7,277 bases of DNA. Source: a bacterium. GTDB lineage: Bacteria > JAJVIF01 > JAGGVT01. How positions within the stretch are numbered: position 1 is the stretch's first letter; the number at the start of each line of letters is the position of its first letter. The stretch covers positions 1 through 7,277 of the forward strand of contig JAGGVT010000154.1 in the NCBI GenBank assembly GCA_021157815.1, read 5' to 3'. Of this stretch, positions 4,252 through 7,277 are shown in pieces. The position numbers were made by a program, and so were the translations under genes. Under the pieces are notes generated by a model, which saw only the letters and a list, made by a program, of their open reading frames with translations, did not search any database and was not told the origin of the DNA.

Positions 4252-4695
4252 ATGTACGATCTCCGAGTCCTTATGATTTGGCTGGTTCTTGGATTCCTGC
4301 TTTATCTTATTACGATTAAACCTGAAAAGGCGGCATCGGAAAAAAAGCAAGGCGAGAATCAGTATGAAAGTGACGATATTGCTGGTTTGGACTGGAAAGG
4401 GCCGGTTACACAATCAGATCGCGAGGTTATGAATAAACTTCGCTCGATGCGGTTTATCGATCACATCGACATGACAGTGTTTAAATCAGCAGATTGTCCA
4501 ATGGGATTGCTTCCGGGTGAATTGATTCTTAATCTGGAAGTTATCCCTCTGAGAGTTGAGAACGAAACTCTGATTCTGGCGATGATTGACCCGTTCGATC
4601 TGAAAGCGATTGACATTGTTCGGGAAATAACAGGACATGAGGTCAAACCGGTGATTATCGCTCAAAAAGAGTTCAGGCAGATTATCGGGGATTAA
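4252..4695 (+). CDS. Membrane-anchored protein with a partial MshEN (GspE/PilB N-domain) module
   Basis: A 147-residue protein with no ATPase core. Residues 5-22 (LRVLMIWLVLGFLLYLIT) form one membrane segment, followed by a charged linker (about 23-60) and a C-terminal domain (about 69-147) that matches the second half of the PilB N-domain. From GELI (89-92) to the end it aligns without gaps to the PilB product of this window, with 27 identical residues of 61 by my count, sharing IP-R-EN--LI-AM-DP and AID--R--TG-EV-P. The tandem R-L-G/L/Q c-di-GMP motif of the first half is absent. Spacing is 122 bp from pilB and 126 bp to pilT, all on one strand. I infer a tethered partner or decoy for the PilB docking site on the platform (in type II systems the GspE N-domain docks on GspL); no function is established. 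The start has a modest AAAGGATGG ribosome-binding site. Confidence 0.
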   Translation: MYDLRVLMIWLVLGFLLYLITIKPEKAASEKKQGENQYESDDIAGLDWKGPVTQSDREVMNKLRSMRFIDHIDMTVFKSADCPMGLLPGELILNLEVIPLRVENETLILAMIDPFDLKAIDIVREITGHEVKPVIIAQKEFRQIIGD

Positions 4696-5996: not shown

Positions 5997-6022
5997 ACGC
6001 CGCAGATGCGGCGTTTTTTTTT
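5997..6022 (+). terminator. Rho-independent terminator after pilT
   Basis: A perfect 7-bp GC-rich stem ACGCCGC / GCGGCGT (5997-6003 and 6008-6014) with an AGAT loop is followed by a run of nine T (6014-6022). It lies 32 bp after the pilT stop. An A-run on the 5' side could give some termination in the other direction too. Confidence 0.
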
Positions 6023-6046: not shown

Positions 6047-6055
6047 TGGTATAAT
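6047..6055 (+). promoter_or_regulatory. Extended -10 promoter of the lipoprotein gene
   Basis: TGGTATAAT is a perfect TGn-TATAAT extended -10 box; no good -35 box is seen, which is usual for this promoter type. Transcription would start near 6062, leaving a leader of about 40 nt. Its place directly after the pilT terminator makes the lipoprotein gene a separate unit. Confidence 0.
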
Positions 6056-6102
6056 AAATATTGGTTTAATCTTATACAGTTGATTTGAAATTGGAGGCTG
6101 AA

Positions 6103-6763
6103 ATGATGAGCCCCCCCCCGCAGTGTTTTACGCTTAACACCTATTCTCTTTGTGTTGTTTTTCCTTTTATTCCTGATTATCGGCTGTAAATCTGGACGTT
6201 CACCGATTATGCCCATTATTCCTGACAGTGATTATCAATTTCAGGCAAGCAATCGCATTATTCCCAGAACTTATGGTCAGGGCTATTCAGATGGAAACAG
6301 AGTTCGATTGATTGGAACAGGACCGTTGGAACTCTATGAATCACAACTTAATCCACCGCAGATGATAAACACTATGCCAGTGTTTTCGGTAAGATATGAT
6401 ACGCTTAATGATCCGCCAATCGGAACATTGAAATTCCCGCAAAACTGGAAACATAATATTTCATGGGAACTCAAATGCAGATACTGTTGGAATGACGGTG
6501 AGAACTGCGCGCATTATGAAACCACCACTGCAGATAGTGGTAGTTTTATATTTGACAGCGCTTTCGATGATACAAATCCGGATTTTCCCGACCTGTTGGA
6601 TTTAGGCATCACAACATCGGCATATCCAAATCCGGTTGTCATGTATGGCTATGAACTTGCTGATTACCTTGAAGAGATATTTACCAATGTTCCCTTGTAT
6701 GATGACGCAGGTTATCCTGATCCACCTTTTGATATCCATTGCTACAGCAAAAAGCGATATTAA
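6103..6763 (+). CDS. Lipoprotein gene with start out of frame across a C9 tract (phase-variable or frameshifted)
   Basis: The initiation signals are GGAGG (6093-6097) 5 nt before ATG-ATG (6103, 6106). In that frame the product is only 28 residues, because nine C (6111-6119) put it out of register. The body lies one frame over: removing one C (or adding two) joins the two ATGs to MMSPPRSV-, a long hydrophobic stretch and a lipobox IIGC with Cys28 as the lipidated residue. The +2 residue is Lys, not Asp, so outer-membrane sorting is expected. The only in-frame start without a shift is a GTG at 6152, with no ribosome-binding site and no charged n-region. The mature part is Asp/Pro/Tyr/Trp-rich with a Cys cluster CRYCWNDGENC and stops at a TAA at 6761. 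I recognise no family. The same frame stays open after that stop, so this may be the first part of a longer broken gene. Confidence 0.
6111..6119 (+). repeat. Homopolymeric C9 tract at the lipoprotein start
   Basis: Nine consecutive C begin in the third codon of the lipoprotein gene. Changing the count by -1 or +2 restores the signal peptide frame; the present count closes it. Poly-C and poly-G tracts of this length placed just inside surface-protein genes are classic slipped-strand phase-variation switches. A homopolymer sequencing or assembly error is the main alternative. Confidence 0.
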
Positions 6764-7277
6764 CTGGAACGTTCACCTCCTTATTATTATGATGGGGTGC
6801 TGGATGATCTGAGGGGATGGCACCCGTGTGATTTGTATGTATTCGCGGCGGGTTGGGATGAGGCGCCGGTTGGCCATTATCATCCTGAGAATATAAATCA
6901 CAAGTTGGTTTTTCCGATTTTGGGACTGCAGGTGTATACTGTAGATGAGAACGGTGTTACGGACATTATATGGAATAGCTTTTCACATTTTGGGCATTTG
7001 CAGATGGGAACACTGGGATGGGAGATGGATTTCAAGCCTTGGGGATCGCCCTTACTTTGGGATGAGGGAATGATGAATTTTCCTGCAGATTTTGAGATAT
7101 ACACCGAATGGGAAGATACTGAACATGAGGAAGTGCCCGATTGCACCTCTGATCCCGATTGCCCGCCGGGATATCCCAGTTGGCTTATGCAGGATTACAA
7201 GCGAACCGAATTGGCATTCCAGTGGTGGAATATCTCCGAGTTGCTTGCCGAATGTGAAAATTTCCAGGAGGTGGATA
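6764..7277 (+). pseudogene. In-frame continuation of the lipoprotein gene after a TAA, open to the window edge
   Basis: After the TAA at 6761-6763 the same frame stays open for 171 codons to the right edge. The residues look like real protein and match the composition of the upstream part (many Trp, Asp, Glu, Pro and Tyr). Examples are GWHPCDLYVFAAGWDE, NHKLVFPILGLQVYTVDENG, SHFGHLQMGTLGWEMDF and a Cys pair PDCTSDPDC. No Shine-Dalgarno precedes the first possible start, a GTG at 6797. The simplest reading is one longer secreted protein interrupted by a nonsense change or an assembly error. A separate downstream gene is less likely. No domain is recognised, and the 3' end is outside the window. 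Confidence 0.

Follow-up and report, generated by a model that had tools for sequence, protein, structure and literature searches.

A poly-C tract as a probable phase-variation switch in a family of exported-protein genes of an uncultured bacterium

A C tract lying between the start codon and the signal peptide of a predicted lipoprotein gene is probably a translational phase-variation (contingency) switch operated by slipped-strand mispairing, and the gene would be one copy of a family of exported-protein genes gated in the same manner, with the assembled allele in the OFF state. The window, i.e., the whole stretch of DNA analysed, is an entire contig (C89, 7277 bp) of a MAG (G000) of 3.2 Mb in 221 contigs, and other contigs of this genome are designated below by their numbers (C23, C194, and so on). 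From the sequence, we infer that tract length changes in cells, that the products are located at the surface, and that switching is beneficial.

Promoter, start codons and C tract of the focal gene

Upstream of the focal lipoprotein gene, pilB, a gene for an MshEN-domain protein, pilT, and a terminator follow one another, and all features described here are on the forward strand. The predicted terminator, a hairpin with a T run 3′ of pilT (5997–6022; 2 terminator-like sites vs. 0.2 in shuffles), separates pilT from the lipoprotein gene, which is therefore probably a transcription unit of its own. An extended −10 promoter element (TGGTATAAT, 6047–6055) is recognizable as a consensus match, and ATGGTACAAT or a similar sequence is present at the corresponding position in the paralogs described below; no −35 element was found in the promoter and terminator search at the focal gene. 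A Shine-Dalgarno (SD) sequence, GGAGG (6093–6097), precedes two neighbouring ATG start codons in one frame (6103 and 6106; 6103–6108), followed by a homopolymer of nine C (6111–6119), the putative slippage switch. The tract lies within the 5′ coding region, 8 nt from the first base of the first ATG, and is the sole C or G run of at least 7 in the window, with 0.01 matches expected per window in dinucleotide shuffles. The promoter element, the SD, the two ATGs, and the nine C had been reported in the first-pass annotation and were located at the positions given.

The tract length determines the product. With the nine C of the assembly, translation from ATG 6103 terminates after 28 codons at TAA 6187–6189 (6103–6189), whereas eight C lead into the signal peptide of the lipoprotein frame and yield 219 codons (MMSPPRSVLRLTPILFVLFFLLFLIIGCKSG...) up to TAA 6761–6763, and ten C yield only 11 codons; translation at each tract length thus bears out the first-pass claim of a 28-codon product at nine C and a lipoprotein signal peptide at eight. 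Accordingly, two features of contingency genes are found here: a repeat long enough to slip (at least 8 C or G) within the 5′ coding region and a product length (28, 219, or 11 codons) set by that repeat, although the 219-codon version is itself shortened by TAA 6761–6763.

The lipoprotein frame (6110–6763), identified by translation and paralog homology, comprises the signal peptide, the lipobox LIIGC (Cys codon 6185–6187), an N-terminal mature part, and the in-frame TAA. In the ON frame, a charged n-region, a hydrophobic core, and a lipobox with Cys (MMSPPRSVLRLTPILFVLFFLLFLIIGC), judged by eye, have the character of a signal peptidase II substrate. This frame opens at 6110, immediately past an in-frame TGA (6107–6109) that overlaps the second ATG, and contains no ATG, GTG, or TTG ahead of GTG 6152; because the latter lies within the hydrophobic core, the frame has no credible start other than the one on the far side of the tract. 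In the proposed mechanism, slipped-strand mispairing during replication would lengthen or shorten by one C the stretch that separates the start codon from the signal peptide's hydrophobic core, one tract length in three would connect the SD and ATG to the lipoprotein frame, and a focal ON cell would produce a truncated lipoprotein of 219 residues owing to the nonsense codon.

Tracts at other gene starts and the paralog family

Every C tract of at least 8 in the genome was examined, and the C37 locus, with seven C, was added. A C tract of 7–11 directly follows an SD-preceded ATG at eight loci, i.e., the focal locus on C89 and those on C23, C194, C174, C13, C37, C14, and C70; at each of them, a signal-peptide-like sequence comes next in one frame. 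In a related lipoprotein gene on C109, eight G are found just downstream of the lipoprotein signal peptide, and all nine tract loci would encode predicted exported proteins. With C174 and C194 counted as one, the distinct non-repeat tracts numbered 20, and 6 of them were in the start zone, generously defined as 6% of strand positions (P = 0.0009); upon collapse of the homologous copies, the count was 4 of 18 (P about 0.02, calculated by hand with the same 6% fraction). Furthermore, the AATG...C7 pattern matched 33 times, compared with 12 times for the reversed control, matches inside one tract being counted separately, and in the class-mates G001–G003 the SD-C7 pattern was no commoner than the reversed control.

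Other C and G runs were encountered in this survey. Many tracts of at least eight C are part of an intergenic repeat (CCCCCCCC TTAATCCCCCCGCGAGCGGGGGGA) and were left out of the gene-start class; this repeat, CCCCCCC(C)TTAATCCCCCCGCGAGCGGGGGG(A), forms a GC-rich hairpin, occurs in dozens of copies genome-wide (e.g., C4:6797, C11:7106, and C154:2010), and is the source of many C/G homopolymers. Seven C after an "ATG" on C35 were rejected as a gene-start tract, the site being near the protein end. On C75, eight G (1280–1287) directly follow the lipobox Cys of a lipoprotein (AVGCGGGGGDATW, by eye) and are in frame as assembled; this tract may represent a further switch, here set to ON.

As assembled, eight of the nine tract loci are out of frame. 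The focal tract of nine C would open with eight; C23, C194, C174, and C13 each have eight C and would open with nine; C37 has seven and would open with eight; C70 has eleven and would open with twelve (or nine); and C109, with eight G, would open with nine G to give 1095 codons. The remaining locus, C14, has nine C in frame and encodes 226 aa. The off-by-one changes needed are in opposite directions, the focal tract having one C too many and the paralogs too few, which fits slippage and does not fit a fixed programmed frameshift.

The focal frame matches large proteins of the same genome on C23 (1209 codons), C194 (1066 codons), and C208, to which the C109 protein (1070 codons) is also related, while C37 (1075 codons) and C13 match in the signal peptide region only and the C174 contig holds only the gene start. 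The bodies on C23, C194, C37, and C109 are open without a stop over 1209, 1066, 1075, and 1070 codons, respectively, in a frame that is unreachable from the start. A comparison of C23 with C194 over 552 codons, in the frame out of reach of both starts, gives a pS of 0.74 (saturated) and a pN of 0.27, and the body is thus conserved in these paralogs although out of frame. Stop-free bodies of more than 1000 codons together with this pS and pN indicate that the bodies are translated at least sometimes, and open paralog bodies under purifying selection in a frame not reached argue against gene death and against random homopolymer error.

The 5′ ends are far more uniform than the bodies. Five loci (C23, C194, C174, C13, and C37) have a nearly identical 5′ cassette consisting of promoter, SD, ATG, tract, and signal peptide, with more divergent bodies; the cassette DNA around the tract is 88–94% identical to a common query, and dS in the first approximately 40 codons is 0.18–0.73, i.e., these codons are far less diverged than the bodies. 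Such conserved 5′ ends on diverged bodies point to recombination, by which the cassette appears to have been spread or homogenised onto diverging bodies. The ATG-frame n-regions of the five copies remain rich in lysine and arginine, and C13 has a 9-nt insertion of its own between ATG and tract that keeps the frame; both are expected if the ATG frame joins the hydrophobic core in some cells. Tentatively, and somewhat improbably, a mobile "gating cassette" may have evolved in this uncultured lineage, and recombination may have placed copies of it on various large exported bodies, giving a lineage-specific, phase-variable surface set that is mostly OFF.

No homologue of the focal lipoprotein was found in the 58 other genomes searched, three of which belong to the same class, or in the named GTDB genome contigs, and two pattern scans of viral contigs revealed nothing related. 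For the lipoproteins, no Pfam match exceeded the cut-off and no NCBIfam match was obtained; for these proteins and the region, Pfam, NCBIfam, and Rfam yielded nothing useful. An AlphaFold model of the C194 body has PDB matches of the Ig/fibronectin-like type at a mean pLDDT of 47, at which these matches are merely a hint of adhesin-like beta-sandwich domains arranged in strings. The C-termini of the family differ: HExxH motifs are seen by eye in C37 and C109, a weak Amidase_6 match below the cut-off was obtained for C194, and His-Gly and Cys motifs resembling those of caspase-like peptidases are seen by eye in C23 and C208. Usually, a second exported gene lies directly 3′ of the family genes (C23, C194, C37, C109, and C208).

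Decay, assembly error and slippage during expression

The best surviving alternative, given rather less than an even chance, is decay, with the focal gene reduced to a pseudogene in which the tract indel counts as one lesion among others. The in-frame TAA 6761–6763 lies within the homologous body, as paralog homology is found on both sides of it and the same frame continues past it for 171 open, paralog-homologous codons (6764–7276, by alignment) until the gene is cut by the contig end. The focal protein also does not have an internal region that is present in C23, C194, and C208. In-frame stops occur in the related copies C161, C48, and C208 as well, and some loss is thus ongoing within the family. 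Against this, the focal body contains one stop in 385 codons (the tract aside), compared with a mean of 22.8 in shuffled sequence, and any decay would therefore be recent; in addition, the bodies of tract paralogs whose frame is broken in the same way are fully open and selected, and the focal body could have decayed behind a tract that once served as a switch. Between the focal body and C23, pS is 0.78 and pN is 0.35, over 52 codons only and for a focal body that also carries the nonsense codon.

The focal gene would therefore be either a recently damaged member of the family or the source of a short lipoprotein when ON; the copy is OFF, possibly also decaying, and may be heading to loss. The caution regarding decay in the first-pass annotation is partly upheld by the nonsense codon between paralog-aligned stretches and the missing internal part, and is countered by the open, selected paralogs. 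Among the readings, its proposal that a phase-variation switch is set to OFF fits best and gains support from paralogs of the same architecture far beyond what the window alone offers, whereas the focal copy, with its second lesion, is the weaker case; because of the nonsense codon and the internal gap, a phase-variable family is a firmer conclusion than a working switch at the focal copy.

Several observations weigh against the switch itself. Eight of the nine loci are OFF simultaneously, and the length of exactly eight C shared by the four homologous copies could reflect inheritance instead of switching. The nonsense codon and shortened body of the focal copy, the in-frame stops of C161, C48, and C208, and the lack of an SD-C7 excess over the reversed control in the class-mates count on the same side. 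Tracts of 7–9 are near the lower end of the lengths known to vary.

A sequencing or assembly error in the homopolymers, with the true genes in frame, is quite improbable. Several loci are one base under the open length (eight for nine), as in an undercall, but the focal tract is one base over, and the nine C of C14 are in frame. C/G runs of 8–9 in other long ORFs (eight G on C35, nine G on C41, eight C on C90, and nine G on C104) are likewise in frame, as are runs of eight A, one of them within pilB of the window; homopolymers are thus not broken generally in the assembly, although this control was drawn from open ORFs, which limits its weight. With C75 included, 2 of 9 tracts of at least 8 at exported 5′ ends are in frame, compared with 4 of 4 elsewhere (hand-computed Fisher p about 0.02, the copies not being independent). 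The homopolymer error that the first-pass annotation had listed as an alternative is thus unlikely as a general explanation, although it may apply to the single focal tract. A similarly low probability is given to a model with no genetic switch, in which the tract would induce transcriptional slippage or programmed ribosomal frameshifting and a small amount of lipoprotein would be made constantly: polymerase slippage on homopolymers is a known phenomenon, all four homologues with eight C share one length, and the family bodies are still under selection, but C runs support transcriptional slippage poorly in comparison with A/T runs, and the opposite shifts of the focal gene and its paralogs are not explained by fixed ribosomal frameshifting.

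Known systems and the surrounding window

The order of SD and start codon, tract, and signal peptide most likely represents translational phase variation in its classical form. In Neisseria, tracts of eight G vary in hpuA, lgtC, and hsdS, and pilC is the model case (PMC5320596). As in the poly-G/C phase variation of pilC, lgtG, and hpuA, the C/G tract is located here in the 5′ coding part, full-length protein results from one tract length in three, and predicted surface proteins at several loci per genome are concerned; unlike in Neisseria, the organism is a different one, the protein family is unrelated, variation is deduced from sequence, and five loci share a single 5′ cassette that apparently recombines onto divergent bodies. 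Tracts at the 5′ ends of prokaryotic genes are mainly poly-A/T, and poly-C/G tracts of more than 2 are generally under-represented (PMC2831843). The focal locus is similar to those 5′-end tracts (Listeria inlA and others) in that a frameshifting tract near the start leads to a very short product, and differs in being poly-C. Multi-copy phase-variable outer membrane families are also known, such as Neisseria opa (PMC5953494), in which, as proposed here, many related surface genes per genome each have their own repeat switch; opa has CTTCT repeats, whereas homopolymers and large lipoproteins without a Pfam or NCBIfam match above cut-off are found here.

If the proposed reading is true, a set of switches on large exported proteins in a sparsely sampled, uncultured lineage would extend the phenomenon and suggest that phage, predators, or a host exert selection on the surface. 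Host-associated bacteria provide the most familiar cases of C/G-tract phase variation. Searching MAGs for genes that are out of frame but have selected bodies would offer a general route to such switches.

In the PilB scan, the closest named matches were distant, namely the MAG AUK090 (59%) and a Ca. Obscuribacterium (42%). The AUK090 stretch around pilB-pilT contains no C or G run of at least 7; in it, pilT directly follows pilB and is itself followed by a pilC-like gene, and in the window the lipoprotein gene follows pilT. The protein encoded between pilB and pilT in the window (4252–4695) is short and combines a membrane segment with a single MshEN domain. Furthermore, an intergenic inverted pair (TGTCATCCTGAGCGAAGCGAAGG / CTTCGCTGCGCTCAGAATGACA) is located at 1717–1850 and is of a repeat type frequently seen in environmental genomes.
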